Shown here piece after piece: positions 27,001 to 56,500 of a stretch of 64,000 nt of DNA. The notes beneath the pieces are model-generated. The model was given only the letters and a program-made list of their open reading frames with translations, searched no databases and was not told the origin of the DNA. Each line of letters begins with the position of its first letter. The first letter of the stretch is position 1. This DNA is from Antedon bifida (lineage: Eukaryota > Echinodermata > Crinoidea > Comatulida > Antedonidae), in the NCBI GenBank assembly GCA_963402885.1, contig OY727100.1, positions 23,655,665 through 23,719,664 on the forward strand, given 5' to 3'. Made by a program: the position numbers and the translations under genes.

Positions 27001-28847
27001 GGAATAACAAAACAGACATAATTATGTTACCTTGAAACATACATAGATGAGTTTGTATGTTTGCAATAATAAAAGAAACATTTTTTCAACTTACTTCATC
27101 TACTTTGTCCATTGGCTGTGGTTTATCTTTCACTCTCAAATCCAAGTAAATTGTTTGTCTATTTGCTGTTTTAGAATTTGAATTGTTTGAGCTAGAACAT
27201 GCCGATACACCTTTACTACAAGTTGTCACTGGTAGAGTTTCAGTAGAGACATCTGTAGACACACCCATAGACACACCCATACTGGTGGATGTTGATTTTA
27301 TCTGAGTATTACTAAAAAAAAAGACTTTCTTTCTTAAAAGATTATGATGGCAATTGTGAGGGTTACAATAAAGATAATAACAAAAATAATGATAATAACA
27401 ACAGATGATGTTTTATTAGTTTTATTATTTTATAGTCACTTACCTAATTTCTGTTCCTACTTTATTGACCTTTACATTCTGTCCAGCATCAGCATATTTT
27501 GTTACTTTGTATTTTGAAGATGATGAAATATTTTTAACCTCATCTGCTTGTGACATACAGAGCTGGGCGAGTTTATCCATTAACGATGCGTTACTAGCTT
27601 GTACTGCACCTACAAAATGTAAGCAATATATTTAATATAATTACAGCATCACAAGGGTGGCACTGGCAGGGTCACTAGAATGGTGATGGGTTGATTGCAA
27701 ACAACATTTGCTGGGTGGACCAACCTGGAGGACAACCCAATGGAACACAGATCGCTTTATATTTATCCAGGAGCGGATCCATGATATTTTAAATGGTTTT
27801 ATATTAATATGTCAAAAGTAGAAATCAAAAGTAGTGCATAATTTTATTTTAGCTGTCTTAAGATTGGGAGCCTTGATCCTAACGATACCACATTGAATCC
27901 GCTCATGCTATATAGTACATCTTTAATAATACTTACAATTTTCATCTTCATCAGCATTTAAATAATGTGGAGTATCAAATTGGTGAGAGTCTAATCTAGA
28001 ACCAACAGAAAGGTCTTCCAACAGCTGATCCAAATTCTGCTCTTTCACTCTTCGAAAATCTGGTACAGGGGCTTGATTAGTTATGAACTTTGACACGATT
28101 CTTGACGGTAAACTTTTCATTATAATATCTTGTTTTCTAATTTCATTGTTGTTTAATTGTTTGTTGTTATTTGCCTCCAAATTGATGGCATCCAACTCAA
28201 GTACGTCATCTTTGGTACTTAAATGTAAGTTCACATCTGATAAATCTATTGTTTCATTAGTGTTGCATCCCAATACATCATAATCAAAACAATCTGTAGT
28301 AATAGGTGAACTTCCAAAATCTTTCATCTTAGCTTGAACAACTTGTTCCTTGTCTTGTTGGGTATCATCAATAACCAATGCTGATTGCCAACTTGTAGGA
28401 GAAAGCAAATCATCACGTCCAGAACCACCTGAGGGACTTTTCATTGACCAGTTGAAGATGCTTAATTCCTCATCTGAACTTGCCTTTAAGAAAAAAAAAA
28501 TATTAAAGAAAGAAACATTGCTGTCCTGTGTGCAGTATTCACTTATTCCCACTATAAAAATAAATTCTAATAAATAGATAGTAGTAATACAGTAAGTACA
28601 GCAGTTTGTAAATATGTTATATATATCTCTATACTTACATCAGATAGGTCAAATTGATAATGATATCTCTATACTTACATCAGATAGGTCAAATTCAAGA
28701 GACGGTAGCTTTTCTTGAACTTCAGTGAATATATTACTCAGTTCTTTATGTAAGTTAGACCCTTCACCGTCTTGCTTTGCCATGATGTCATAACACAATC
28801 TGATTGCCAAATGTAATACTTTTTCTTCTTTTAAATGATCTTGATTG
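18045..28847 (-). CDS. DNAAF8: DNAAF8-like protein with multiple NDK-like modules
   Basis: Twenty-one coding exons on the minus strand join in frame (about 1,700 residues, first exon not certain). In transcript order: 28847-28679, 28483-27937, 27609-27444, 27311-27095, 26874-26822, 26515-26375, 26250-26184, 26029-25778, 25596-24269, 23842-23667, 23280-23065, 22816-22545, 22386-21885, 21318-21149, 20838-20643, 20234-20140, 20029-19927, 19736-19528, 19161-19079, 18799-18730, 18119-18045. The N-terminal part has KLPSLEFDLSDASSDEELSI, like the QLPSIDSDGS acidic start I recall for human C16orf71 (DNAAF8), a factor for axonemal dynein preassembly in cytoplasmic foci. Next come TIYLDLR, an acidic DDSDDNDDD stretch and a coiled coil (exon 26029-25778). 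The rest is a row of NDK-like modules. Its position beside ANKS3 supports the naming. The human protein is, as I recall, much shorter (about 520 residues), so the name is firm only for the N-terminal part. Confidence -1.
18822..18985. mobile_element. MITE-like element, family 1, in a DNAAF8-like intron
   Basis: Full-length, about 160 bp. Begins TTAAGCTCTGGCTACACTAT and ends TTGATAGTGTAGACAGAGCT. Lies between exons 19161-19079 and 18799-18730 and close to the acceptor of the latter. Confidence -1.
20140..21318 (-). other. Best-preserved NDK-like module of the DNAAF8-like protein
   Basis: Exons 21318-21149, 20838-20643 and 20234-20140 together spell a nucleoside diphosphate kinase fold in order: TLAVIKP (first strand and lysine), GFKVVGLRLVQMSRDQA, the PSMVLCLQRENAV strand, RG.FG.D, then NGLHVSNSYSAA and LFFP. 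In active NDKs this last block is NxxHGSDS..SA..E..FFP with the phosphorylated histidine. Here the N and H remain but the following glycine is valine and DS is NS. Activity is therefore doubtful; nucleotide binding or a scaffold role is possible. Confidence -1.
21417..21870. repeat. TCTAG-rich minisatellite in a DNAAF8-like intron
   Basis: About 450 bp made of TCTAGTCTAGCTTAGTCTAA-like words, with a longer-period unit marked by TGTAATCTACAGTAGCTTTA recurring four or five times. It ends only about 15 bp from the donor of exon 22386-21885. Confidence -1.
21885..25596 (-). other. Three degenerate NDK-like modules
   Basis: Module 1 in exon 25596-24269: ICMLSILN, GIDVCGVRLIYTPEDM, GPILAFALRGADA, then RTDPNSL. 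Module 2 across 23842-22545: SDIFLVVSP, GFQLRGLRRLRL, PSLLILLRKENA. Module 3 across 22816-21885: IVVVTLIG, GIELLGMKWLPSLTSAQA, VINVMRGVDAFQRL, AELAYRQTAVFF. Each follows the NDK order (strand 1, GF.v.G, ..QA, strand with Rg/kE.A), but none shows the NxxH catalytic block. A fifth C-terminal module lies in exons 19736-18045 (TTCVVLTPPL, GFEVVGARMICLTEKQA, LVLALERDNA, AHAALGFFFDEL), also without NxxH. Confidence -1.
23455..23595. mobile_element. MITE-like element, family 1, in a DNAAF8-like intron
   Basis: Begins TTAAAGCTCTGTCTATACTA and ends TTTGATAGTGTAGACAGAGC. Internal words ATGTGATGTGGCCAT and CATATCACTACCATATTTGG match the family. Confidence -1.
28624..28700. repeat. 40-bp tandem duplication of a splice donor
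   Basis: ATATCTCTATACTTACATCA plus GATAGGTCAAATT occurs twice. It copies the end of coding exon 28847-28679 together with its GTAAGT donor (minus strand). Using the outer donor would add a short reading frame ending in a stop, so the inner donor at 28678 is the one that keeps the frame. Confidence -1.
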
Positions 28848-29479
28848 CTATAGAATAGAAAGTAAGTTTTAATAATTAATAATACTTGTTTATTTGTTTT
28901 CCGTACACTTGCGTCTATGGGACCGAGGCGAAGCACTCAGTGCTTAAAAGCCCCTCTCTTGAAAATAATTAAAGGTACTCTCTCGATATATGGCGAAAAA
29001 TTAATTTAGTGTGTTTTGGATAGGACTACTATGTATTTTATGACTCAAAAACCAGAAACAATAAAATAAGCAAGGAGTTTACACTGCTGCAGCCAGTATA
29101 TATCTCAAACTCAGTCATGGAAAGAAATAAAAATTAGACAATGAAATGCAGTTGACACCATCTTCATGAGCATTTCCCCAACATCACACTTACGTGCCTA
29201 CAATGCTAGTATAGTAGAGCAGAGTAACCGCCAGGTCAGGCCCGATCTGTTCTCAGCAGTTCTGGGCCTAGATCGTCGTACCTAGGCCTACCTACTAGTC
29301 CTAGGCCTAGGCTAACTATTATACTAACTGCCAGCCTAACTATCGTTTGGCGTCCCTAGATACCAACCTAAAGACTACTATAAAAGGCTATTTTCTAGTA
29401 TGTATATTTAAAATTAACATCACATAATATTCTTTTATAAATGAATTGTATAGGCCTAATTTTCAAATAATTAACGTTT

Positions 29480-29537
29480 ACCCAGGGCCTTAGTTTCGTA
29501 AAAACAGTGAATAAGAAAGATCGTCATCCGCCATTTT
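29480..29537 (-). promoter_or_regulatory. Probable 5' exon and start of the DNAAF8-like gene
   Basis: On the minus strand AAAATGGCGGATGACGATC (ATG at 29534-29532) is a strong start context, opening MADDDLSYSL. A donor-like CTGG/GTAAAC lies at 29479, but the MADDD frame stops before it. A weaker donor (CACT/GTTTTT) would give the phase 2 needed by exon 28847. Another small exon between 28848 and 29479 is also possible. The start codon is therefore a candidate only; I see nothing else in 28848-29479. Confidence -1.
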
Positions 29538-29749
29538 GAGGTATATTCAGAGCGTCATTTCGACGATCGAGCGTTCTCTACTTCTCTACGGAGCGCCATT
29601 TATGCCTTTATTAACTTCAATAATAGAAATAGTACTACGGTAACTGCTCAAGTGGACCCAATTTAGCACCAGGGTAGCACACCGATATAAAATAGAAATA
29701 AAAGTCACTACTTTTAATATCGTTTCGTATATACCCATATCACAAACTG

Positions 29750-30350
29750 ACAAACAGAAACATCTTGGCATTCACATTGATTCAAAGTTATCTTTTTCTT
29801 TTCATGTAAATAAACTCCGTTCCAAACTGGGCTTGTCCATCTCCATCTTATCGCGTGCCCGTCATTTCACACATCCATACTCCTCTATAACACTATAATC
29901 CTCCCACACATTGACTATTGCTGTAGTGTTTGGGGAATCAGATCGAATATTGACCGAATACAGACCATTCAAAATAGAGCATTTCGCATTATCCTTAAAG
30001 CTAATCCTCTCACACCACGAACTAACATAATTTACAACACCTTAAATCTTCATACAGTCCAAGATCCATGCATCTACAACTGGGCTGCCTTGCCTACAGG
30101 TCTGCAAATGGTCTTGCTCCGGAATACCAATACCTTGAATTCCAAATCATTGATGTATCCGAAGTGTCAGTGAGAGGAAATTTGTCGTCCCTTTCCCTAA
30201 AACTGAAACTTTTAAGAACAGCTTCATCTATAGAGCACCAACTGAATTTGCTACCCACCAATCTAAGAAATGCGGTAACAATAAATAATTTGAAGTATGC
30301 TCTAAAAAAATATTTAATCCCAAAAGAAAAAACTCAACGTTTTGTATAGT
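29750..30350 (+). pseudogene. Broken LINE reverse-transcriptase C-terminus in left arm
   Basis: Translated pieces read HLGIHIDSKLSFSFHVNKL, then IDYCCSVWGIRS, IQTIQNRAFRIIL and later NLLPTNLRNAVTINNL. These are the familiar end of a CR1/jockey-type RT ORF (yW G...l..iQ.ra.R and a closing LP..lr). Stops and frame changes break it in both arms. It forms part of the inverted arm rather than a free-standing insert. Confidence -1.
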
Positions 30351-32139
30351 ATTGTAGGCTATATTTTTGTATTTAAGTACATATATATTATATATTTTTA
30401 TATTTTTTGAACATAGTTCATCCGTTTTTCTTTTTCCATATATGTTTTTGACTGTCTGCATTTGCTGTTTAGGGTCACCCTCACTAAATAAGGTTTAATA
30501 AAAAAATAAAATAGAAATAAAGTCACTAAGTTTTAATATCTTTTCGTATAAAACACTGTGCTCAAGTGGACACAATTTGGCACCAGGGGAGCAGTGATAT
30601 AAAATAGAAATAAAGTCACTCAAGTTTTAATCTTTTCGTATGTTAATACACTGTGCTCAAGTGGACCCAAATTTGGCGCCAGTGTATTTTTTTTAATGGA
30701 AAATAATGAATATTTTTAAAACAAAGTTGCATGGCATTATTTTCCATTAAATAGACTGCCATAAAAACCTCGAAAAGAAGCCCATGTGCTCCTTCATTTT
30801 TAGTACTCTTGGGTGGGCTTCTTTTCCACATAGAGTTCTTTTCGAGATTACTTTTGCAAACTAACCGAGGGGAACTGCTAGCTTCTCGCCCGGAAAATAT
30901 TTTATTTACATGATTTGAAAAATCTTCTAATGTAAATAATTAACAGCATCAAAATTTAACAGTGTGGCGTGTTGACCGCGAATGACTAACATACCATCTT
31001 CACCATAATACACCTGTACAAACTCATTTGCATAACAACGCAGGGCTTACCAACCTGTTTAAAATAGCTACAAGGTCCCCAGAAATGACACATATAGTAT
31101 TTTGAAACATGATATATAAGAGTCTTCACTACCCCACCATGATTGGGGCTGAGCAAAGACAATTTTGAAAAAATATTTATTGAAATATGAGATTAAATAT
31201 TAAGTCTCCAGTTAAGCTCACCATGGTTGGGGCAGAGCTAAGAATGAAAGCTTAGTCCCCGGAAATTATGAAACGAAATATAAGTCTTCAGCACCAGCCA
31301 TACAATGGTGATTGTTTCCCAAGTGTGAGACGTGCAATGCACGCGGCCGTGACGGTAATTCAACAAAAGAAAATTATGAAATACAAACAGAGCTAGCACA
31401 CAAAAGCCTACTTACTAATTTTAATATTTTTCTATAATTTAGAAAACAATGACAATTATCATATCACCTTTGATAATTATAATGTTAAATTTCAACTATC
31501 CAGATGGGAATTTTAGGTTGGGTTTTAAAAAACTCGACTTCATAATTATGCTTCAATTTCGAAGATCTGCTTAAAACATATTTATTTATTTATTCTGCCA
31601 TAAACTTTTATTCACAACATATTAGTAGGCCTACAATACAATATCTTGCATGAAACGGATATTTGAAAATACACTATAATGTGTAACGGTAGAATTATAA
31701 TTCTAATGTAAAAAATTAACAAAATAAAAATTGAACAGTGTTGTGTGTTGATCGCGAATGACTAACAATACCATCTTTCCCTCAGCACATGTGCACACTC
31801 ATTTGCATAACAAACGCACGGCATACCAAACTACGATGAGATAAAATTAATTCTTTTCTAAACACGTAACGAAGAGAATTAATTCCTTTTTTTTTAACAT
31901 TAAAATAAATTGAGGGCGCTAAACATAAAATTTAAACCATCAAAGCAGTTGGCGAGAGCCAAAAAAAAAGATGGTAAATGTGCTCTCCCTGCCTCAGCAC
32001 TAAGGCCCTGCCACAGCCTTTTGGGGTCGTTTCCACCACATCAATTGATGTTGTCGCCTCATGATGTGTGGTGGAAAGGGGGACGTATGATCTGTGAACC
32101 CCAAACACAGTGGCCGCATGCCTTTAACTCTATTCCACC

Positions 32140-32211
32140 GACCAGCGTGGGAATCGAACCCACGACATACGTGTTGTTAACACGACGCTCAGACGACTGA
32201 GCTAACTGATC
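32140..32211 (-). tRNA. tRNA-Val(AAC)-like gene, copy A
   Basis: 72 nt that fold as a complete cloverleaf. Acceptor GATCAGT pairs with GCTGGTC (two G-T pairs), D stem is GCTC/GAGC, the anticodon arm has loop TTAACAA (anticodon AAC), variable loop is ATGTC, and the T stem is GTGGG/CCCAC around TTCGATT. One T-T mismatch tops the anticodon stem. Internal A and B boxes are good. It sits in a repeat, so it may be a tRNA-derived promoter rather than a working gene. Confidence -1.
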
Positions 32212-32307
32212 ATTTTGGTTTAAGCAAGGTTAATAAGATATATATGACGTAATGATGAATTACGTAATACACGTATAAATAGACTATTATCAGCTTTTCA
32301 GTCATGT

Positions 32308-32376
32308 ACTTGGTGGCGTAACGGGTAATGCTCAGTTTTGAGTGCTATCGGCTGGGGTTCGAACCTCGACGGATAT
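32308..32376 (+). ncRNA. Second Pol III-type A/B-box module, copy A
   Basis: TGGCGTAACGGG resembles an A box and GGTTCGAACC is a perfect B box, 38 bp apart, followed by a T run that could end Pol III transcription. The T arm can form but acceptor and anticodon arms pair poorly, so I call it tRNA-like only. It points away from the tRNA-Val-like gene about 100 bp to the left. Copies: about 34049-34117 (+), 36728-36796 (-) and, degraded, 36124-36190 (-). Confidence -1.
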
Positions 32377-32429
32377 TTTTTTTTTATGAATATTGTTTTT
32401 TTTTTTTTAAGAGAGATATTTTGAGGATT

Positions 32430-34160
32430 GTAAATGTCAAGTGGACCTTTTTTAAAACAAAGTTGCATGGCATTATTTTCCATTAAATAGACTGCCATAA
32501 AAACCTAAAAAAAAAGCCCATGTGCTCCTTCATTTTTAGTACTCTTGGGTGGGCTTCTTTTCCACATAGAGTTCTTTTCGAGATTACTTTTGCAAACTAA
32601 CCGAGGGGAACTGCTAGCTTCTCGCCCGGAAAATATTTTATTTACATGATTTGAAAAATCTTCTAATGTAAATAATTAACAGCATCAACATTTAACAGTG
32701 TGGCGTGTTGACCGCGAATGACTAACATACCATCTTCACCATAATACACCTGTACAAACTCATTTGCATAACAAAGCAGGGCTTACCAAACTGTTTAAAA
32801 TAGCTACAAGGTCCCCAGAAATGACATACAGTATTTTGAAACATGATATATAAGAGTCTTCACTACCCCACCATGATTGGGGCTGAGCAAAGACAATTTT
32901 GAAAAAATATTTATTGAAATATGAGATTAAATATTAAGTCTCCAGTTAAGCTCACCACGGTTGGGGCAGAGCTAAGAATGAAAGCTTAGTCCCCGGAAAG
33001 AAATATATAAGTCTTCAGGACCAGCCATACAATGGTGATTGTTTCCCAAGTGTGAGACGTGCAATGCACGCGGCCGTGACGGTAATTCAACAAAAGAAAA
33101 TTATGAAATACAAACAGAGCTAGCACACAAAAGCCTACTTACTAATTTTAATATTTTTCTATAATTTAGAAAACAATGACAATTATCATATCACCTTTGA
33201 TAATTATAATGTTAAATTTCAACTATCCAGATGGGAATTTTAGGTTGGGTTTTAAAAAACTCGACTTCATAATTATGCTTCAATTTCGAAGATCTGCTTA
33301 AAACATATTTATTTATTTATTCTGCCATAAACTTTTATTCACAACATATTAGTAGGCCTACAATACAATATCTTGCATGAAACGGATATTTGAAAATACA
33401 CTATAATGTGTAACGGTAGAATTATAATTCTAATGTAAAAAATTAACAAAATAAAAATTGAACAGTGTTGTGTGTTGATCGCGAATGACTAACAATACCA
33501 TCTTTCCCTCAGCACATGTGCACACTCATTTGCATAACAAACACACGGCATACCAAACTACGATGAGATAAAATTAATTCTTTTCTAAACACGTAACGAA
33601 GAGAATTAATTCCTTTTTTTTTACATAAAATAAATTGAGGGCGCTAAACATAAAATTTAAACCATCAAAGCAGTTGGCGAGAGCCAAAAAAAAAGATGGT
33701 AAATGTGCTCTCCCTGCCTCAGCACTAAGGCCCTGCCACAGCCTTTTGGGGTCGTTTCCACCACATCACCAGATGCATTGATGTTGTCGCCTCATGATGT
33801 GTGGTGGAAAGGGGGACGTATGATCTGTGAACCCCAAACACAGTGGCCGCATGCCTTTAACTCTATTCCACCGACCAGCGTGGGAATCGAACCCACGACA
33901 TACGTGTTGTTAACACGACGCTCAGACGACTGAGCTAACTGATCATTTTGGTTTAAGCAAGGTTAATAAGATATATATGACGTAATGGTGAATTACGTAA
34001 TACACGTATAAATAGACTATTATCAGCTTTTCAGTCATGTACTTGGTGGCGTAACGGGTAATGCTCAGTTTTGAGTGCTATCGGCTGGGGTTCGAACCTC
34101 GACGGATATTTTTTTATTTTATGAATATTGTTTTTTTTTTTAAAGAGAGATATGTGAAAC
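32430..34160 (+). repeat. 1.74-kb unit, copy B
   Basis: Direct copy of unit A with a few small indels, for example an extra ACCAGATGC near 33769 that A lacks. It joins A directly, with no spacer. Confidence -1.
33873..33944 (-). tRNA. tRNA-Val(AAC)-like gene, copy B
   Basis: Same 72-nt sequence and fold as copy A, in unit B. No substitution seen within the cloverleaf. Confidence -1.
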
Positions 34161-34599
34161 TGTATTGTCGAACATGTATGGTACCATACCGGTAGGTATT
34201 CAAATATGCTTAATCGATGTAAAAATACTTTTAAAATAATAATTCATCAATTCTCTTCTTTTATTATCTCGTAAAAACGTTTATTACAATTTCTTGGAAG
34301 TCATTCTAAGAAATAATACATCATCTGAAACCTGTAATAATTGTATAATATAAAATATTACACATTTTCTGTATGTAGTAGGTTTAAGCGTATACACACA
34401 TTCTCACGTGTATGTCATTGCGTACACATTGTGATGACAGCCTGGTTATGAAGACGTGTCACATGACAAACACAGTTAAAGATTCCACCAATCCGGTCGG
34501 CCTACACATTCAATGTCCGTACGTATACACTTGTTGATGTGTATAGGCTATGGGGCATGGCCTTTTATCGTTTCTAATTTTTCTTTTGCATTACGAATG

Positions 34600-35046
34600 G
34601 AGTAACCGATATTGAACTTATATACCAAGTTTGAAATATTTTTGAATTCGAGAAATATTTTTTCTAGAAAAAAGAAAAAATATGGCGCCAATATTGGATC
34701 CACTGAAGAACAGTGTATTAACCTTTTTTTTTTGTAAAAAAAAAATATTCCCCGATTTCAATATATATTTCTTGGTATATTTTAAATTTAAGTTGCTCAA
34801 TTTACAGGAAAAAAATCGAATTCCTAACCGGTTTTTTTTGTCAAAGTCATTATTAGAGTTTAACATAGGCCTATGTTTCGGAATTGTATGTTCTTTCATA
34901 AGTATTATCTTAAGCAAACGCAACTTATTAAAATCACTGATGTGGCTTGAAATTATTATTTTTTTGGTTTACAGATGGAGTAACCGATATTGAACATATA
35001 TACCAAGTTTGAAATATTTTTGAATTCCAGAAGTATTTTTTCTCGA
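34600..35046. repeat. Direct repeat pair in the element core
   Basis: ATGGAGTAACCGATATTGAA plus TATATACCAAGTTTGAAATA recurs about 375 bp apart (34598 and 34976), each followed by a degenerate copy of the 100-bp GTCCACTTGAGCAC unit. Open frames here on both strands are low-complexity and look non-coding. Confidence -1.
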
Positions 35047-35084
35047 TGTTTCTGTATGTGACTATTTCCCTGTGTCCCATTGGT

Positions 35085-35430
35085 GCCAAATTGGGTCCAC
35101 TTGAGCACAGTGTATTAACATACGAAAATATATTTAATTTTAGTGACTTATTTCTATTTTATATCACTGTGCTCACTGGCGCGCGCGCCAAATTGGGTCC
35201 ACGTGAGCACAGTGTATTAACATACGAAAAGATATTAAAATTCAGTGACTTATTTCTATTTTATATCACTGTGCTCCCCTGGCTCCAAATTGGGTCCACT
35301 TGAGCACAGTGTATTAAATACGGAAGGATATTAAAATTCAGTGACTTTTTTCTATTATTATATATCACTGTGCTCCACTGGCTCGAAAGTGGGTTCCACT
35401 TGAGCACACTGTATTAACATACGAAAAGAC
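35085..35430. repeat. About 100-bp tandem repeat, four copies
   Basis: Unit GTCCACTTGAGCACAGTGTA ... GTGACTTATTTCTATTTTAT ... CACTGTGCTC at about 35095, 35198, 35294 and 35392. The same unit in the other direction flanks the inner ends of both arms (30510-30690 and 38460-38560) and recurs at 39370-39425. Confidence -1.
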
Positions 35431-36290
35431 GGCCGCGTGCATTGCACGTCTCACACTTGGGAAACAATCACCATTGTATGGCTGGTCCTGAAGACTTATA
35501 TATTTCGTTACATAATTTCCGGGGACTAAGCTTTCATTCTTAGCTCTGCCCCACCCATGGTGAGCTTAACTGGAGACTTAATATTTAATTTCATATTTCA
35601 ATAAATAAATTATATATCATGTTTCAAAATACTATTTATTATGTGTCATTTCTGGGGACCTTGTAGCTATTTTAAACAGTTTGGTAAGCCCTGCGTTGTT
35701 ATGCAAATGAGTTTGTGCAGGTGTAATGGGGAAGATGGTATTGTTAGTCCTACGCGGTGAACACGCCACAACATTAAATTTAAAAGTTAAATTTTGATTT
35801 TGTTAATCTTTATTAGAAATTCAAATCATGTAAAGATACAATTTTCCGGGCCGGAATCTAGAAACTTCCTCCTTTAGTTACACAAGTAATCTCGAAAAGA
35901 ACCCCATGTGGAAAAGAAGCTTATCCGTTGAAAAGAAACCACCGTACCCAAGAGTACTAACAAATGAGGAACACATGGGCTCTTTTTGGGGTTTTATGGT
36001 GTCTATTTAATGGGAAAATGAATGGCATACACGTTTGTTTATGATTTAAGGTCCACTTGCCTAGGCCTGACATTTTCAACCCTCCAAATATCTCTCTTTC
36101 AAAAAAAAACAATTCATAAAAAAATATCCGTAGAGGTTCGAACCCCAGCTGATAGCACTCAAAACTGAGCAGTACCCGTTGCACCACAAACTGAAACATG
36201 ACTGAACAGCTGATAATTGTCTATTTATACGTGTATTATTCATCATTACGTCATTAATATCATTACGTCATTAACATGTTCGACAATACA
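35430..36290 (-). repeat. Degraded, deleted unit D (inverted)
   Basis: Starts at the GCCGCGTGCATTGCACGTCT block, keeps the octamer-containing block (GTTATGCAAATGAG at about 35698) and the A/B-box module (B box GGTTCGAACCCC at about 36135), but has lost the tRNA-Val-like part. More diverged than A, B or C. Confidence -1.
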
Positions 36291-36699
36291 GTGTCACATA
36301 TCTCTATAATATTGTATTGTAGGCCTACTAATATTATGTTGTGAATAAAAGTTTATGGTAGAATAAATAAATAAATATGTTTTAAGCAGATCTTCGAAAT
36401 TGAAGCATATGAAGTCAAGTTTTTAAAACCCAACCTAAAATTCGCATCTGGATAGTTGAAATTTAACCTTATAATTATCAAAGGTGATAATTGTAATTGT
36501 TTTCTAAATTATAGAAATATTAAAATTAGTAAGTAATTAGCAAGAAATTGTAATAAAAGTTTTTACGAGATAATAAAAGAAGAGAATTGATGAATTATTA
36601 TTTTAAAAGTATTTTTACATCGATTAAGCATATTTGAATACCTACCGGTATGGTACCATACATGTTCTACAATACAGTGTCACATATCTCTCTTTAAAA

Positions 36700-38400
36700 A
36701 AAAAACAATATTCATAAAAAAAAAAAATATCCGTCTAGGTTCGAACCCCAGCCGATAGCACTCAAAACTGAGCATTACCCGTTACGCCACCAAGTACATG
36801 ACTGAAAAGCTGATAATAGTCTATTTATACGTGTATTACGTAATTCACCATTACGTCATATATATCCTATTAACCTTGCTTAAACCAAAATGATCAGTTA
36901 GCTCAGTCGTCTGAGCGTCGTGTTAACAACACGTATGTCGTGGGTTCGATTCCCACGCTGGTCGGTGGAATAGAGTTAAGGGCATGCGGCCACTGTGTTT
37001 GGGGTTCACAGATCATACGTCCCCCTTTCCACCACACATCATGAGGCGACAACATCAATGCATCTGGTGATGTGGTGGAAACGACCCCAAAAGGCTGTGG
37101 CAGGGCCTTAGTGCTGAGGCAGGGAGAGCACATTTACCATCTTTTTTTTTTGGCTCTCGCCAACTGCTTTGATGGTTTAAATTTTATGTTTAGCGCCCTC
37201 AATTTATTTTAATGTGTAAAAAAAAGGGAATTTTCTTCGTTACTTGTTTAGAAGAGAATTAATTTTATCTCATCGTAGTTTGGTATGCCGTGCGTTTGTT
37301 ATGCAAATGAGTGTGCACATGTGCTGAGGGAAAGATGGTATTGTTAGTCATTCGCGATCAACACACAACACTGTTCAATTTTTATTTTGTTAATCTTTTA
37401 CATTAGAATTGTAATTCTACCGTTACACATTATAGTGTATTTTTAAATATCCGTTTCATGCAAGATATTGTATTATAGGCCTACTAATATGTTGTGAATA
37501 AAAGTTTATGGCAGAATAAATAAATAAATATGTTTTAAGCAGATCTTCGAAATTGAAGCATAATTATGAAGTCGAGTTTTTTAAAACCCAACCTAAAATT
37601 CCCATCTGGATAGTTGAAATTTAACATTATAATTATCAAAGGTGATATGATAATTGTAATTGTTTTCTAAATTATAGAAATATTAAAATTAGTAAGTAGG
37701 CTTTTGTGTGCTAGCTCTGTTTGTATTTCATAATTTTCTTTTGTTGAATTACCGTCACGGCCGCGTGCATTGCACGTCTCACACTTGGGAAACAATCACC
37801 ATTGTATGGCTGGTCCTGAAGACTTATATATTTCGTTTCATAATTTCCGGGGACTAAGCTTTCATTCTTAGCTCTGCCCCAACCGTGGTGAGCTTAACTG
37901 GAGACTAAATATTTAATCTCATATTTCAATAAATATTTTTTCAAAATTGTCTTTGCTCAGCCCCAATCATGGTGGGGTAGTAAAGACTCTTATATATCAT
38001 GTTTCAAAAACTATATGTCATTTCTAGGGACCTTTTTTTAAACAGTTTGGTAAGCCCTGCGTTGTTATGCAAATGAGTTTGTACAGGTGTATTATGGTGA
38101 AGATGGTATGTTAGTCATTCGCGGTCAACACGCCACACTGTTAAATTTTGATGCTGTTAATTATTTACATTAGAAGATTTTTCAAATCATGTAAATAAAA
38201 TATTTTCCGGGCGAGAAGCTAGAAGTTCCCCTCGGTTAGTTTGCAAAAGTAATCTCGAAAAGAACTCTATGTGGAAAAGAAGCCCACCCAAGAGTACTAA
38301 AAATGAAGGAGCACATGGGCTTCTTTTCGAGGTTTTATGGCAGTCTATTTAATGGAAAATAATGCCATGCAACTTTGTTTTAAAAAAGGTCCACTTGACA
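36700..38400 (-). repeat. 1.74-kb unit, copy C (inverted)
   Basis: Reverse complement of A/B and the inner part of the right arm. It keeps the tRNA-Val-like gene (now plus strand) and the A/B-box module (now minus strand). Confidence -1.
36892..36963 (+). tRNA. tRNA-Val(AAC)-like gene, copy C
   Basis: Same 72-nt cloverleaf in the inverted unit C. Sequence unchanged between copies although flanking bases differ, which suggests recent copying or selection. Confidence -1.
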
Positions 38401-38749
38401 TTTACAATCCTCAAAATATCTCTCTTTCAAAATAAAAGAAAAACAATATTTTCCATTAAAAAAAATCCACTGGGGCCAAATTGGGTCCACTTGAGCACAT
38501 TGTATTAACATTAACATACGAAAAGATATTAAAATTTAGTGACTTTATTTCTATTTTATTTTTTTATTAAACCTTATTTAGTGAGGGTGACCCTAAACAG
38601 CAAAAGCAGACAGTCAAAAACATATATGGAAAAAGAAAAACGGATAAACTATGTTCAAAAAATATAAAAATATATAATATATATGTACTTAAATACAAAA
38701 ATATAGCCTACAATACTATACAAAACGTTGAGTTTTTTCTTTTGGGATT

Positions 38750-39330
38750 AAATATTTTTTTAGAGCAGACTTAATTATTTATTGTTACCGCATTTCTTAG
38801 TTTGGTGGGTAGCAAATTCAGGTATGTTGGTGCTCTATAGATGAAGCTGTTCTTAAAAGTTTCAGTTTTAGGGAAAGGGACGCCGGACAAATTTCCTCTC
38901 ACTCTGACACTTCGGGTACATCGATGATTTGGAATTCAAGGTATTGGTATTCCGCGGAGCAAGACAATTTGCAGACCTGTAGGTAAGGCAGCCCAGTTGT
39001 AGATGCATGGATCTTGGACTGTATGAAGATTTAAGGTCTTGTAAATTATGTTAGTTCGTGTTGTGAGAGGATGAGCTTTAAGGATAATGCGAAATGCTCT
39101 ATTTTGAATGGTCTGTATTCGGTCAATATTCGATCTGATTCCCCAAACACTACAGCAATAGTCAATATTGTGTGGGAGGATTATAGTGTTATAGAGGAGT
39201 ATGGATGTGTGAAAATTAATGACGGGCACGCGATAAGATGGAGATGGACAAGCCCAGTTTGGAACGGAGTTTATTTAAAGATAAATTTGAATCAATGTAA
39301 ATGCCAAGATGTTTCTGTTTGTCAGTTTGT
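38750..39330 (-). pseudogene. Broken LINE reverse-transcriptase C-terminus in right arm
   Basis: Inverted copy of the left-arm fragment: HNIDYCCSVWGIRSNIDRIQ and NRAFRIILKAHPL are readable on the minus strand. It carries different small indels from the left copy, for example near the VNKL region where 12 bp are missing. Confidence -1.
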
Positions 39331-39590
39331 GATATGGGTATATACGAAACGATATTAAAAGTAGTGGCTTTTATTTCTATTTTATATCACTGTGCTACCC
39401 TGGTGCTAAATTGGGTCCACTTGAGCAGTTACCGTAGTACTATTTCTATTATTGAAGTTAATAAAGGCATAAATGGCGCTCCGTAGAGAAGTAGAGAATT
39501 CTCGATCGTCGAAATGCTCCGAAATGACGCTCTGAATATACCTCCCATTTTTTTCCAGAGCATCTGTGTTTTGTTTTCATGTGTAGCTTA

Positions 39591-40173: not shown

Positions 40174-43100
40174 ATGGCAACTGCAGCAGCTGGTAACCTT
40201 GACTACCCTTATGAAGCAAGTGATGAAGCCAGCGAGACAGAGTTTCTGGATCGAAGTCTATCAGTTTGGCGTGGTTATGATTCGTTGCAAGACCAATTCA
40301 ACCCTATTCCTCTTGACCTCTACACTGCCTGTTCCATTGGTCATTACGAAACTGTTCATGCATTTATCCAAAGGTCAGTTTTATCGTTAAATGACATCAA
40401 GGAGTGAGTGGCCGAGCGGTTAAGACAGTGGAACCGTAATTACGTAGCCAGAACATCGGCAGGGGTTCGAGGCTCACTCACTCCATGGTTCTGGTGGTGG
40501 AACGAGTCTTCTCGGATAAGGACTATAAACCGTAGGTCCAGTGTACACATCTAGCTCATGTGCACTTTAAAGAACCTAGTACATCTTTCGAGATGAGTAA
40601 GGGGTTACCCCGGTGTATTAGTACATCACAGCCACTGATCACCAACTGGGCCCTCTGGGAGACCAGTCTTTGACTGAAGAGGTCGCCCAGTATAAATATA
40701 TATTTCAATTCAATATTTCAAGACATTTGTTTATATATTGCAATTAGATTAAGTGTGTATTTTTTCCAAAAACTCTTTTGATTAACTTGACATCAAAATG
40801 TTATTTTTCAGTGGTCAAGTTGATCTGAATCAAAAAAACAAAGGAAGCTGGACACCCTTAATGTATGCATCATATATATCACATGACAACATCGTCAACT
40901 TGCTATTGGATGGTGGAGTTCAAGTGGACATACAGACCGAGAAAGGCGCTACAGCGTTTATGCTTGCAGCGAGTTGTGGCAATGAAAGCGTTTGCTACTT
41001 TTTACTCCAAGTGAGATTAATATTGTTAGGTGTTAATTCACATTCATGTGTATCTTTTTAAACTCCACCTGAGCAGAGTAGTTCAGTCATTAAGTCAAAC
41101 ATCAGACAACTTTTTATCTCTGTCTACACTATCAAACTTTATGTGACAATAAAATGTGATGTGCCCATATATGGACACGATGATTTCATATTACTACCAT
41201 ATTTAGGAACATCATACTTTTTTGTCAAACTAGTTTGATAGTGTAAACAGAGCTTAAGACAAACAAACACCGGTGACCCATGGCTGACCCAGTATTGCAT
41301 GATGGTCCTAGCCACTCTGTATCCTCCTTGTAAATAATTATTGTTCACCATTTTCATTGCTTGTAAACTGTTGATTGTGTATTTACAGCAAGGAGCAAAG
41401 ATAGATCAGAGAGATACCAAGGGATGGAGTGCCTTGTTCTATGCTACAAATGCTGGACATCAAACTATGGTACAATTTTTACTAGACAACAAAGCACAAG
41501 CTAATGTTGTGTGAGTTCAATTGAATAATTCATGCTTTAAGCTCTGTCTACACTATCAAACTGTCCATATATGGACACAGTGACATCATATCGTTGAAGT
41601 TGTTAAAAAGGCCAACTCTAGACTTGGTTTAATTAAGAGAACCTTTGAATATTTAGACAGTCATTTAGTGTCTATCCTTTATAAATCAATGGTTAGACCG
41701 ATTTTAGAATATTCTAGTACGGCTTGTCTTCCTCAGTTTGTTGGTGATTCTATTCTCTTAGAAAAAGTTCAGCAAAGAGCCACAAAACTTGCTGTGGAAA
41801 TTAAAACTCAACCATATAGTGACCGAATGAAATTTATGAAACTGCCATCATTAGCATTTCGAAGAAAGAGGTCTTGCTGCTTACAGATTTTTAGAATGAT
41901 ACAAAAGTATGATAATGTTAATCCGGGTGTCTTTTTTGAATTAGCACCATCTACTGTAACTAGAGGCCACAATTTTAAAATTAAAAAAGTTCATAGTAAA
42001 TCGAAACACAGACAGAAATTCTTTTCAATATCTGCAGTAAATGATTGGAATAGTTTGCCATATCATATAGTAAATGCATCCTCTATAAATAATTTTAAAA
42101 CCCATCTTGAAACACACTGGAAAACCCACAACCTAAAGTTTGAGCCATATAACTAAGATGTCCAAAGAGGGACTCACAAACCTTAACAGGTTTATAGTCT
42201 AAAGGTCAAGGTAAATCAAGGTAAATATCACTACCATATTTGGGCACATCACACTTTTTTGTCAAACTTGTTTGATAGTGTAGACAGGGCTTTACATCAT
42301 TGTGTCCTGTCCTTTGTGAACATTGATTTATTATGGTATTCTCGAGGTCTGGCTGGCAATTAGCTACACTCCTGTAAGTTCATGATCTTTGGCAATGTTG
42401 ACTTATTATGGTAATCATCGAGGTCTGGCAATTAGCTACACTCCTGTTCCTGGTCTTTGGCAATGTTGACTTATTATGGTAATCATCGAGGTCTGGCAAT
42501 TAGCTACACTCCTGTTCCTGGTCTTTGGCAATGTTGACTTATTATGGTAATCATCGAGGTCTGGCAATTAGCTACACTCCTGTTCCTGGTCTTTGGCAAT
42601 GTTGACTTATTATGGTAATCATCGAGGTCTGGCAATTAGCTACACTCCTGTTCCTGGTCTTTGGCAATGTTGACTTATTATGGTAATCATCGAGGTCTGG
42701 CAATTAGCTACACTCCTGTTCCTGGTCTTTGGCAATGTTGACTTATTATGGTAATCATCGGGGTCTGGCAATTAGCTACACTCCTGTAAGTTCCTGGTCT
42801 TTGGCAATGTTGACTTATGGTAATCATCGGGGTCTGGCAATTAGCTACACTCCTGTAAGTTCCTGGTCTTTGGCAATGTTGACTTATGGTAATCATCGGG
42901 GTCTGGTAATTAGCTACACTCCTGTAAGTTCCTGGTCTTTGGCAATGTTGACTTATGGTAATCATCGAGGTCTGGTAATTTACTACACTCAAGTCCCTGG
43001 TCTTTAGCATTTATCATTTGCAGGAATTGGGCTCTTTATCTTCCTCTGTCTTTCCATCAATTTTCAAATTAATAATTTAGTTTACATACTTGAACAAGAA

Positions 43101-46100
43101 TGATCCTTGTACTTTAACTCTCCAATCCTGAATGAGGATAAACACGGTTCAAATATGATTTGTTTACAGTGACTATCACCATGGAATCACACCTCTGATG
43201 ATGGCGTCGGCCGAAGGTCATGAAATTATCGTCAACAAGTTACTTGAACATGTAAGTTATTAATACAGTTAATTGTAAAATGTCCTTCATTCTATGAAAT
43301 AAAAATTCATATGCCACCAGTTTAATTATTTAAGCAGTTGTTGATTTTAAAACGACTAAATAATTTAAATAATATATTTCAGGGTGTGAACATTGAATAT
43401 AAGAATGCAAAGGGAGATACAGCGAGGTCACTGGCCATTGTAAATGGACACATGAAGATTGTTAGCCTCATTGACAATCATACAATGGCGTCAATTTCAT
43501 TACGGTCAGAGCCAGGTGAGTACTTACATTACTAATTTCTTCATTGTTTTTTTTTTATTCCTTTCAGTGAAACATAAACATAAAAAGGGAGCACTGTGGA
43601 GTGGCAAGAGCAGTCACAGACAACTATCGCCAAAGGGCGTGTCTCTCCAATTCCAGACAAACAAATAAATGCAAAAATAATATATTTCTTTAGTTTACCG
43701 ACTTTAACTTCAAGTTGTATATATTCATTCCTTTTATTTCATTCCTTTTTCTGTAGGGCTTGGTTCAGGCCTCGATTTTAGCTCATCTGATGAGAATTTT
43801 CAAAGACCCAGACATCATGGTCGTACCTCTAAGTTAAAAAGTAAAGGACCAAGTATACGAGATGGTCCAGATGCTGTGGCTAAGATGCTTCAGGACAGCA
43901 GGCAGACTGAGGGTGTAAGGAAGCCTAGCAAAAGTAAGCCTATCAAATCCCATGGTGCTATTAAAGTATTATGGTTTCTTATCTTCCCTTGTTTTCTTCT
44001 TTTCCCTTGTTGTCTTATTTTCCCTTGTTTTCTTCTTTTCCCTTGTTGTCTTATTTTCCTTTGTTCTCTTCCTTTCTCTTGTTAAAATGGTAGTCTTTTA
44101 TCTCCTTTTATCCAGCTTGTACCATTACTTGGTACTGGCTTTATAAACAAAGGGACATTACCACATATTAATATTGATTTAATTTTCATAGATTCAATAA
44201 TTCCAAGTGGATATGTTACATTTGAAGACAATCTTCCATTTGTAACTGACCCTGTTTCCAATCGTGAGGTCATTTCACCTATAAACCCTAAGGAACATGA
44301 CTTTGCTGTCTTAGACAGCAATGATCAAGGTAAGATCATACTAATATTCATACAATTAATTTACATTTCATACATTCATATTAAAGTGAACACGAAATGT
44401 CCTCATAAAGGGGTTCTCCCAGAATAAAAGTTGATTGTAGTGATCAAACATTTTGCTTTTCATTCAGCAAGCCCGTAGCCAGGGGGTTCGTAGGATTTGT
44501 GTGCCCTTTTCAATCTATAGACCAACTGAAGAAGTGCTAGTAAATAGATAATAATAGATAAATAGTAAATGATATTAAATTATTTCATCTACTAGGCTAG
44601 GCCTAAATCTATGTTTTCTTCCGTTGCTTACACTTGCACTTTTCCCTTGTAAAAAATAAGCTCCTGTAAAAATCCTGGCTACATGCTTGATTCATTCTAT
44701 GGGAAAGTGTTTCCTTAATAGGGTTGTTCCCTTAAAAGAGGTGTCGCCTCAAAGATACTACAGTACATTTGCACTGTATGACACTAACAATGCACATGTT
44801 ACATATGTTCATATTCCAGGTTCCTCATGGTTTGAACATTATGAGAATGCTGGTGATGGCAGCTCTTTCTTTGATGCTGGAGATGTCACAATTAAAAGCT
44901 CCAATTCATCCAGCTTGAGTGGCAGCACCGGAGGTCTTGCAGGATCGGTTGGCATCAGTCGTGAAAACAGCATCTCAAGCAACGATGAAGAGGATAAAGC
45001 AAACAATGTTGACCATGTGGAGAAGTCATCCAAAGAGAATGGAAAGAAAGAAAACTTGCATCATGCTCATATAGGAACACCGTCACATGTTCCTCATCTC
45101 TATGGCAACATTCCACCAGAGAAGGTTGTGAACATTTTTAAGGATGACGTTGAGGAACCTTACCCTTACTCAAACCTTGCAATGTTGCTGGAGAGTCTTA
45201 ATCTTATTAAATATTACGCATTGTTTGAGGAACAGGATGTTGACTTGAGGGTGTTTCTAACACTCAGTGATACAGACCTCAAAGAAATTGGTATCAAGTA
45301 AGTATTGTGTCTTTCTCAGCAATGTAAGCTGTTAACTAAACTATATTTTCGTTCAATGTCATTATGAAGCTTTGATAGTGGTGGTGTCTTTTATTACAAT
45401 TTCAAACAGATTATAATTAGCTTCATGGCTTGACGTCGTGAAGTGTACGATAGAAACGGTACTGGTATGATCAACTAGCGTTCATGTTCCCACCTAATAA
45501 CTTTAGAAACCAAACCCTTCTAAGTCATTATGAGGCTTAGATAATGGTAGTTTTTTATAGAAACATCCAGGTAATGAAAATTACAATTTTAAACCAGGAA
45601 TAAATAGTTCGACTAGAAGCTGTGATAACTATAGAACACAATGATCACAAGAAAACCAAGTATGGAAATCACCAACCAAGTCACCAGTGAATAATGAAAC
45701 AACATCAATGGCTCAGCCATAAGTGATATCTCCAGGGATTTTAGAAGCAATCATACCCTAGAGATATAGAAGCATAACACCTACTAAGCTATTAGCTAAT
45801 GACAACATTAATCTTTCAATTAAATTTAACAAATAGATAATTTTCTTACAGATTATTAGGACCACGTAAGAAAATGACAAATGCAATAGCTAGGAAACAT
45901 AGTAAAGCGCCACCTTTCAAAGACAATCTTGAACAAACATACGCTGACAGGGTCGAGTCTATTATGCAGGAAATGGCTCATAAATATCAACAGGTAAAAA
46001 TCGTGATGTGCCCATATATGGCCATGGTGATGTCATATCACTACCATATTTAAGCATATCGCTACCATATTTGGGTACACTTTTTTGATAGTTTGATAGT

Positions 46101-53500: not shown

Positions 53501-56500
53501 TGTAATTGTGATTGGCCAAATACTTTAGCGTTGAGTTTACGTCCTCCCTTGAGCTGCGTCCTGATTGGAACAAATATAAATAAGATGTTTATTCAAGATA
53601 TGACCAACATGGAAAAAGAACCCAGCTTGTGCCATTCTCAGCATGCACCATGAGCGCGGCGGCGGCAAGGAGGTTGACTTGTCATTATTCTGACATTATT
53701 TCTTGCTTACTCTTATAGCTGATGCCGTACCTTGTAATGGACATCCTTGCGGAATTCCCCGGCATACCGGGACTTTTCGTTGCAGCAATGTTCAGCGGTG
53801 CTTTAAGGTATCAATATACGAGGCGCCGTTCAGGACATTATTTATGTGTCATATAACTGTATTATGTTGACATAGTATTCCAAACGGCGCCCCGTACCAA
53901 TGCAACTCTTCTATTGTTTGTAATTAAACCTCAGTTCCCATTAGGGCGCTTCGGGCGTTGTTTGACGCATACACAGTGAACAGTATTTCTCAGTATGAAC
54001 ACATTAATGTTAACGCACAGTTTGATATAGTTTATTGTTCTGTTACAGTACAGTGTCTTCTGGACTGAATTCATTAGCCGCTGTTTTAGGTGAAGACGTC
54101 ATTAAACCATTTTTTAATCCCACCGAGGAAAAGTATACGAAGATTAGTAAAGCAGTAGGTAAGTGCATTATAGTCATATAATCATGATGGTAAATTAAAG
54201 TACTTATGCGAAGTAGCGTTGTGTGAATGGAGCTGCGTTGATTGGTCAAATGTTTTGACATAGTAGGCCTACTCTGACGTATTTGAACTGGATCATGAGA
54301 CGCAAAGCAAGCGAGTTGACCAATGGCAAGCGACAGTTCGAATAATCCATCTCTTGTGATTGGTCAAATCACTTACGTAGTGTTCGTCCTTGTGTTGCGT
54401 CTCTAGTGGCAACCAATTATTAGTTTCGGTTGCTCATTAACTTACTACCAGTATACCAAATGCCTGGATTACCTTTATTATAACTTTTAAAGAATGTTTT
54501 TCTGCATTTGAATTGTTTCCAGTGTGTTCGTTTGGGTTGCTGTCGATTGGTATGGCTTACGTCGCTTCTCAACTTGGTGACGTTCTTCAAGCTGCACTTA
54601 GTATATTTGGAATGATTGGCGGTCCGTTATTGGGGGTCTTTATGCTAGGAATGTTCTTTCCTTGGACCAACTCAATCGTAAGTTTCATTTCACTTTTATG
54701 TTTCTAAATTTTCAAACATTCTAAGCGACATTTGTTTGGACGCGATACAGAATGTTGTGGGTTTTAATTATCGTATTATGAGGCAGATGTACAGTATATC
54801 TTCCTGGTATGATCACTCTCATTTTGTTCACTTTTGTTTCCTTTGTTATTGTACAAAATAGGCCTAAATTTAAATATAATGTACCGTATATATGGGATGC
54901 ACTGTAATTGTCTAATCGGAAGACCTTCGAGAGGGACCCACGACAGCGCCAGGATTGCCACTCATTTAAGATAATGCACACAGTGCGATTTCTGTCTACG
55001 AAACCAACGGCTTTACGACAAATCCGAAGGACGGTGGGTAATAAAAGCCAGCACCTTGCTTAAGGTTACAAACACCGTGGCTATAAACCAGTAGTGTCGC
55101 ATTCATAACAAACTTTATCAAGTAGGCCTACTGTATACACGTCGATCAAATATCTGTTTTTCTTTTAAGGGTGCGGTTGTTGGATTATTTTCTGGATTAG
55201 GTTTTTCGTTTTGGGTTGGAGTTGGCGCTCAATTCTACCCACCATATACTAAATGGCTTGGCAACAAACCAATCTCTGTGGCCCTCTGTAACGATACTAT
55301 TACAACAATATCACCGTTTGATACAACAATGATACCAACTACGCCAGAACCATAGTAAGTTTTCAATCTTTTTATGGGTTACTTGATGTGCTAGTGTTTG
55401 TTAGTTGTTGATTGGTTGGATGATTGGTTGGTCGATCGGTTGGATCGTGTAAATTTGATTGGATGATTCTGTTGGTTGTCTGATCGACTCATTGGTCAGT
55501 TTATTGTTTGGTGGTGTGTTAGTTGTCTGTTGATTGGTTACTGATTGGTCAGTTTGTTAACAGAAGAGTGGCGTATTAACCAATGACAATCTAGTGAGAT
55601 ATACCTTATGTACGGTAATCAATAAGGGACGCACATTATAATAATTTGGTATTCAGTTACTATACCACAACATACGATATTCTAAAATGTATCATAAAAC
55701 ATATTACGACAATATAATTTGTTTTAAGGCATTTAAGTTGGGTTTATGACGTTAATTTTCAGCACAAATCTAGCTGAAACGTGGTATTCTATGAGTTATC
55801 TATATTATAGCGCAGTGGCTGTTTTATCAACTCTATTCTTTGGCTTAGTAACGAGTTTCATTACAGGTACGTGTAGTGAAATATATAAATCAAGTAAATT
55901 TTAATTCTAATCCCAGAATATCGAACATCAGTCTATTTCAATTTAGAAAAAGGCGCAGCCTGAATTTATTCCACTTATTATTACTTATTCCTACGGGGTG
56001 CCGTTCGGGACATAACTAATTGTGTCAATATAGTATACGTACGTACGTGTCCATCATGTTTTTATTAGACAAACCAAGACTATCATATGAATACATATCA
56101 AAGTTCGCTCCACATCAGAGCAAAAAAATGAAAAAGATCTTATCCAACATTGTATTCCATAATCTACCATGTTCTTTTTCAATAAATTCCAAATGATCTT
56201 GATACGTAACAACGAACGCCATCCCATCGGACATAGAAGATCAGCAGCTATAACAATTTCACTTGTTTTTCAGGAGCACAAGATCCAAGCGAACTGGACC
56301 CTGGCTTAATATCACCAGTCTTCGATATCATGTGTTGTTGTCTGCCTAAAAAATGGCGGCAAACATTACATTGTGGTGTTCCACAAGACGAGGACGATGA
56401 CAGTGTCCAGGTAAGTAACAAGTCGTCACACAGAAATATAGTATGACAATAGAATGAAGTTGACCAACAGCTAAACGTCCCTCATTTGCAATCAAACACA

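Follow-up and report, generated by a model that had tools for sequence, protein, structure and literature searches.

How did a palindromic sequence of some 10 kb come to lie between two divergently oriented genes of the feather star Antedon bifida, and from what kind of element was it built? The stretch analyzed here (the window, 64,000 nucleotides) corresponds to C13:23655665-23719664 in a 315.6-Mb, 27-contig assembly of the same genome, and the element embedded in it is 10,007 bp long (29538-39544) and lies about 346 kb from the end of contig C13. We suggest, with a probability of roughly 0.88, that this element is a foldback-type DNA transposon with terminal inverted repeats (TIRs), devoid of a transposase of its own and built as an inverted dimer, which was moved in trans into a divergent-promoter region.

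The initial annotation of this locus had proposed matching inverted ends at 29538 and 39544 and a CCATTTT on both flanks. Re-reading found exactly this: the terminus at 29538 reads GAGGTATATTCAGAGCG and that at 39544 reads CGCTCTGAATATACCTC. The chance occurrence of such a configuration is excluded, since the terminus recurs at 334 places in the 315.6-Mb genome (30-base left-type tip, up to 3 mismatches), compared with 0 for a reversed-pattern control, and since the flanking 7-bp repeat, i.e., the target-site duplication (TSD), is perfect in 15 of the 18 copies, the window copy among them, that have both ends within the available stretch (26 fetched or joined sequences were scanned). The misses are L022, L025, and the dimer on contig C15 described below. 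The idea that a transposon of the foldback type was inserted here, with a genuine target duplication and between two divergent genes whose nearest ATGs had been about 0.6 kb apart, is supported. A 31-base right-type tip with up to 2 mismatches was detected at 106 places, again with 0 for the reversed-pattern control; the two types of tip differ by 3 bases and the two counts overlap, the 334 places including exact right-type tips. In addition, the first 363 bases of the element gave 632 candidate places in the genome, and the best 40, which were scored, all matched. The target repeats of the family show at most a weak preference at the outer bases and no strong motif, and the left flank in the window (29081-29537) is single copy in the genome except for a 44-base stretch. 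A segmental inverted duplication without transposition is ruled out by the TSD and by the dispersal of the termini. As an insertion, the event is real but nothing out of the ordinary; removing the element and one repeat, the empty site is expected to have read CCGCCATTTTTTTCCAG.

The two arms (29538-32419 and 36684-39544) had been described as well over 90% alike, which holds for both measures used: BLAST gives 93.2% over 2935 columns with gaps counted, and a global alignment gives 96.5% (99 substitutions in 2810 aligned positions, with 21 gap runs). Of the 99 substitutions, 39 are crowded into a single 200-column block together with 50 gap columns; this block falls on the tandem repeats near 30506-30682, and some of these differences may reflect the register in which the repeats were aligned. 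The features that define foldback elements are all present, that is, long inverted arms, a TSD of constant length, and tandem repeats within the arms (93-bp units at 30506-30682).

The internal anatomy of the element becomes intelligible when it is compared with ordinary members of the family. Four of these (L012, L013, L017, and L023; 4.9-5.2 kb), each with internal duplications of its own, consist of a left-end module, a B module, a right-end tandem array, and a right terminus, in the same order as positions 29538-35429 of the window. The array, which in ordinary members lies directly inside the right terminus, ends in the window copy at the dimer junction (35429), and the right-terminal stretch of all four ordinary members matches only the outer ends of the window element and not its center. 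As judged from this order of modules, the window copy is an inverted dimer, composed of a near-complete left-to-right element (29538-35429), from which a right-terminal part of about 110-200 bp including the terminus is absent, and of the reversed left half of a second one. The left side also harbors a direct 1.7-kb duplication (30713-32419 and 32449-34153, 98.0% alike) that the initial annotation did not report. The features of the locus are collected in Table 1.

Table 1. Features of the element and of the adjoining gene starts (positions in the window).
Feature	Position	Strand	Basis
Whole element, palindromic (inverted-dimer) member of a TIR transposon family	29538-39544	.	Ends, arm alignment, family comparison
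Left TSD copy CCATTTT, within CCGCCATTTT (29528-29537)	29531-29537	+	Sequence reading, TSD scan
Right TSD copy CCATTTT	39545-39551	+	Sequence reading, TSD scan
Left 22-bp terminus GAGGTATATTCAGAGCGTCATT, family-wide	29538-29559	+	Tip searches
Right 22-bp terminus, identical in sequence to its left counterpart	39523-39544	-	Sequence reading, TSD scan
Left-end module, 1.1 kb, with 93-bp repeat x1.9 at 30506-30682	29538-30682	+	Repeat scan, member comparison
B module, copy 1	30713-32419	+	BLAST, member comparison
B module, direct copy 2, 98.0% to copy 1	32449-34153	+	BLAST
Right-end-type tandem array, ~97-102-bp units, ending at the dimer junction	35063-35429	+	Repeat scan, member comparison
Dimer junction, right-end array against reversed B-like sequence	35429..35430	.	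Junction-spanning query
Left half of a second element in reverse, with a diverged B-like part followed by the B and left-end modules	35430-39544	-	BLAST, member comparison
tRNA-Val(AAC)-like sequence in B module 1, no T-run terminator	32138-32212	-	tRNA scan
tRNA-Val-like sequence in B module 2	33871-33945	-	tRNA scan
tRNA-Val-like sequence in reversed B module	36891-36965	+	tRNA scan
Region of first coding exon, ankyrin/SAM (ANKS3-like) gene, ATG at 40174	40174-40404	+	Frame reading; no Pfam match in this frame
Proposed exon 2 of minus-strand gene, ATG 28783-28781 likely translation start	28682-28847	-	Frame/splice reading

The dimer is not confined to the window. A query spanning the junction (35330-35530) matched, besides itself over its full length, a site on another contig (C15:9247246) with 95% identity over 179 of its 201 bases, the other matches covering one side or repeats only (40 of 660 candidates scored). 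The C15 element is 10.05 kb long from end to end, and its arms are 95.6% alike over 1.9 kb. Since the same dimer is found at two loci and the left flank in the window is not duplicated, transposition is the simplest account, although the C15 copy has no matching target repeat, a trait it shares with the chimeric copies of Galileo (PMC3573991). These data also bear on the possibility that mirrored or chimeric reads were assembled into a false palindrome. Long inverted repeats are, in general, hard to assemble, but the arms are of unequal length and differ by the substitutions and gap runs given above, each end meets the same 7-bp repeat but a different flank, and the junction is shared with C15; we therefore regard an assembly error as highly improbable.

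In the tree of left ends, the ends of the window and C15 copies group with those of L011 and L024 (support 1.0), while another palindrome, L021 on contig C10, has two ends that are mutual nearest neighbors (support 0.84), so that two or more separate origins of palindromes are probable. At the left end in the window, the outermost 31 bases are an exact right-type tip, and the same is true for both ends of the C15 copy, so that tips have been exchanged within this subfamily.

The similarity of the arms had been taken as a sign that the insertion may be recent, an argument that finds no support in the comparison with C15, which shares the dimer junction. Indeed, over the terminal 480-500 bases the two window ends differ by 1.9%, and the right end of the C15 copy differs from them by 2.1 and 1.9%. 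As this end is as close to the window ends as these are to each other, arm identity reflects family descent and conversion and says little about the date of landing, and it was rejected as an insertion clock. The intact target repeat is compatible with a young insertion, without being proof of it.

As regards the family as a whole, dimers are only one of its forms. Five members that bear a right-type tip at both ends were compared: in L038, L040, and L041 the ~97-bp repeats build inverted arms of about 0.6-1.4 kb at the termini, and the inverted matches listed for L037 and L039 correspond to inner arrays. The termini are concentrated toward contig ends: 48 of 93 exact left-type tips on contigs C1 and C7-C15 lie within 2 Mb of a contig end, compared with an expected 13.5%, as do 23 of 60 exact right-type tips; these counts omit the sites on C16 and C22 (4 of the left and 5 of the right type), contigs for which no length was at hand, and the corresponding P-values are overstated, since paired ends are not independent. 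At L011:3943-3949, two ends of the family are separated by 5 bases (CCTC TAATA GAGG), possibly a nested or abutting insertion. Among the openly licensed PMC papers listed in searches on foldbacks of sea urchins and other echinoderms, giant or Ulp1 Mutator foldbacks, Galileo, Dada, Zisupton, and YY1, there was no description of this family, which, large and oddly built as it is, looks undescribed.

A further trait of the family is its cargo. In every B module of the window there is a tRNA-Val(AAC)-like sequence that gives a complete cloverleaf (score of 50.4 bits, cut-off 29). The window and 29 other loci gave 33 tRNA calls, of which 31 were aligned (two, at L018 and L028, were omitted as lying outside elements), and 3 further calls (L010, L023) were dropped as a different tRNA-like sequence. 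In the resulting 28 copies, non-consensus bases amount to 0.9% in the tRNA part, compared with 4.0% and 2.1% in the two adjoining 150-base flanks; some 25-base windows within these flanks are equally low (0.4 to 1.2%), so that a special conservation of the tRNA part is not proven. Since no T-run directly follows it, the tRNA-Val-like sequence may be the head of a short interspersed element rather than a working gene. The broken open frames of the outer (left-end) modules look like a non-LTR reverse transcriptase in its C-terminal part. One BLASTP match (5e-4 over 21 amino acids) lends weak backing to this resemblance; a Pfam search of the open frames of the arms gave nothing above the cut-offs and did not confirm the label of long interspersed element (LINE).

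The question then arises of which enzyme might have moved these elements. A 14.4-kb member on contig C11 (C11:19841740-19856132; L044, L045, and L046) has 47-bp perfect terminal repeats and the TSD CATAGTT, and carries on its minus strand an exon for a C48 (Ulp1-type) peptidase (PF02902, E 1.2e-6) together with a PHD-like exon that stays below the Pfam cut-off (9e-4). Of 16 genome matches of the C48 exon, four copies are at least 98% identical and one is 73% identical. The stretch C14:4011573-4045033, which has family ends and CAAAGGG on both sides and thus reads as one 33.5-kb insertion, contains one of these four. The DNA inside the right end of the large member gave 17 matches, four of them strong (C11, C9, C14, and C8, with 100, 97, 95, and 85% identity) and 13 short, and a C48 exon is present within 20 kb of 3 of the 4 strong ones. 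On the basis of these sequences, the large members with the C48 exon are the best candidates for the source of a helper, although the searches described below found no transposase in the C11 or C14 element. A 98-bp repeat is present 20 times in the C11 member, in which a frame at L046:900-1356 (minus strand), without a Pfam match, looks GIY-YIG-like.

These peptidase and PHD-like exons lead to the tentative idea, to which we give somewhat less than even odds, that the family belongs to Mutator, its foldbacks being moved by an animal Mutator transposase with a C-terminal Ulp1-PHD part. This would be in agreement with the Ulp1 domains described in Mutator elements of hydra and lancelet and with the alignment of Ulp1 and PHD between Ginger1 and Mutator transposases, in which the C48 peptidase is followed by a PHD finger (PMC2836005), as well as with the statement that most foldbacks are thought to be Mutator elements (PMC4079207). 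However, the TSD is 7 bp long, compared with the 8-10 bp (usually 9) of Mutator, and none of 76 hits to the domain of Mutator-like elements (MULE; PF10551, E up to 10) falls in the C11 or C14 elements. On contig C7, a MULE hit with a 412-residue frame is found at a distance of 22 kb from the C48-exon relative of 73% identity and in the same orientation (C7:23988992-23989285 and 24010953-24011111). This is a lead only, and the MULE is downstream of the C48 exon and not upstream. No DDE domain, such as those of Mutator and Ginger1 transposases, was seen here by P-type and MULE profile searches. The KDZ (Zisupton) profile (PF18758) gave no hit in the genome, nor in any of its 14 controls. Ginger1 itself was rejected, because its 4-bp CCGG/CCGT TSD and TGTNR ends (PMC2836005) do not fit the 7-bp TSD and GAGGT ends found here; Dada, which inserts into multicopy small RNA genes and has no TIR, was rejected on account of the 22-bp to 47-bp TIRs and the varied target sites of this family.

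Membership of the P superfamily, next to Galileo of Drosophila, is in our opinion unlikely. The 7-bp TSD agrees with that of Galileo (the P element itself has 8 bp), but the termini of Galileo differ from the GAGGTATATTCAGAGCGTCATT termini of this family. Although the genome is rich in P-type transposases (58 hits to PF21787), none of the hits falls in the C11 or C14 members. Moreover, no family terminus with up to 6 mismatches was seen in the eight best P-type loci and L042, loci of 3.4-4.8 kb that may stop short of the element ends. L042 is one of 15 equal-scoring places with a P-type transposase frame (642 residues in 14 of them, 638 in one); the set, of which this one copy was read, is a separate, apparently very young P-like family, and it was set aside as a source, no matching termini being seen at the nine loci. 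In its architecture, Galileo is nevertheless close. According to PMC3573991, it shares the 7-bp TSD and similar kinds of derivatives; its 2RT (recombinant-TIR) copies have long arms that contain tandem repeats and have grown by taking up inner parts of the element in inverted orientation, its transposase-less copies outnumber nearly complete ones, and chimeras with non-matching 7-bp flanks occur. The arms of Galileo reach about 1.26 kb, compared with 2.9 kb in the window element (PMC3573991).

Sea urchin TU elements, to which we liken the family by description only, are foldbacks whose long inverted repeats comprise an outer repeated and an inner domain, with an 8-bp TSD; they are cited by name in PMC4079207. 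The foldbacks Tetris and Tm1 (PMC4079207, PMC3169594) resemble the family in their long modular arms of tandem repeats, variable middle, and many non-coding copies, and are described there with a TSD of 8-10 bp, versus 7 bp here; the arms in the present family contain, in contrast, tRNA-Val-like and LINE-like pieces, and it has 14-33-kb relatives with a C48-peptidase exon.

On the whole, we propose that ordinary members, with a 1.1-kb left-end module, a B module bearing the tRNA-Val-like sequence, tandem repeats inside the right end, and the common GAGGTATATTCAGAGCGTCATT terminus, would have given rise to the dimer by template switching during gap repair or during replication at repeats. The finished palindrome would then have been moved by a transposase acting in trans, of which the 7-bp duplication is the visible trace, large members such as the 33.5-kb C14 copy being candidate sources. 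Its target would have been a short divergent-promoter region, bordered by an ankyrin/SAM (ANKS3-like) gene and by a gene with nucleoside diphosphate kinase (NDK) domains, the insertion probably leaving the main coding exons intact, the promoters 10 kb apart, and a CCATTTT on each side. Several points weigh against this scenario. The C15 sister lacks a matching TSD (TGTCACA and TAAATAT), and its spread by transposition is therefore not shown; the outer tip in the window is of the right type in spite of the left-end module behind it, so that the history is more mixed than that of a simple dimer of two left ends; template switching is our inference; the 33.5-kb C14 copy was read at its two 30-base ends (L049, L050) only; and the searches of the C11 and C14 large elements for P-type (0 of 58 hits) and MULE (0 of 76) domains were both empty.

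A bolder extension of the same scheme, which we consider a long shot, would be an undescribed lineage of giant (~33-kb) TIR elements with a 7-bp TSD, a C48-PHD gene, and a transposase that is neither P nor Mutator, driving smaller derivatives that repeatedly turn palindromic, carry the tRNA-Val-like sequence, and accumulate near chromosome ends, one of which split a divergent gene pair and gave each gene its own YY1-type core. Be that as it may, the interesting part is the family and not the insertion. Foldback transposons are often found without their mobilizing enzyme, as the authors of the Tetris paper say of their own element; here, a single genome offers a series from giant members with a candidate helper gene, through ordinary left-right members and foldbacks with two right ends, to inverted dimers with a junction common to two loci. 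Such a graded series makes the origin of long inverted arms directly testable, and the window copy represents a clean natural experiment in which a divergent promoter was pulled 10 kb apart.

Concerning the two genes, the one on the plus strand, starting at 40174, contains ankyrin repeats (40786-41058) and a SAM domain (44660-45298) according to Pfam, which fits the ANKS3 identity assigned by the initial annotation. The minus-strand gene had been named DNAAF8-like, a label that goes back to a resemblance at the N-terminus. Since human DNAAF8 is described as largely disordered (PMC12633730), and the gene gives three Pfam NDK matches (one over the cut-off) and PDB matches to NDK7 and others, this second name stays tentative. 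Among the openly licensed PMC papers listed in a search for ANKS3 and C16orf71 as a bidirectional pair, there was no description of the transposon family, and a scan of the flanks for RFX X-boxes gave only matches with 2 mismatches.

Once the element and one repeat are removed, the two candidate ATGs stand 625 bases apart, practically the distance of about 626 bp initially estimated. That the duplicated bases include the start codon of the minus-strand gene is, on the other hand, doubtful: the ATG in the target repeat reads MADDDLSYSLFLRN and then TAA, that is, it meets a stop after 14 codons, unless the weak donor ACT/GTTTTT, which would keep the frame into exon 2, is used. A donor of better consensus (TGG/GTAAAC) follows that stop, and exon 2 has a well-placed ATG of its own at 28783 on the minus strand (MAKQDGEGSNLHKEL...LPSLEFD). 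A non-coding first exon thus seems somewhat more likely from the reading of frames and splice sites; in that case the duplicated ATG would at most begin an upstream open reading frame, and the main start codons would have been 1376 bases apart before the insertion.

It is also conceivable, though we deem it distinctly unlikely, that the insert acts on the gene pair, either by duplicating a YY1-type core, CCATTTT, so that each gene has one, or as an insulator or a source of double-stranded RNA. We take CCGCCATNTT to be the YY1 consensus. The sequence CCGCCATTTT at 29528-29537 is one of its two exact matches in the window, where 0.29 would be expected and 1 of 100 shuffles gave two or more; the insertion leaves CCGCCATTTT on the side of the minus-strand gene and CCATTTT on the other. 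In many promoters, YY1 sites with their CCAT/ATGG core are described as overlapping start codons (PMC3429435). However, the TSDs of the family are without a strong motif, and hitting CCATTTT may therefore be accidental; literature searches on foldbacks together with YY1 and promoters, among the PMC papers listed, gave no description of this family.

The second exact AAAATGGCGG / CCGCCATTTT occurrence in the window, at 56350-56359, perhaps marks another gene start. Within the region of the ankyrin/SAM gene, a frame at 41584-42153 looks reverse-transcriptase-like, and positions 42323-43009 are occupied by a minisatellite of ten 68-bp units.

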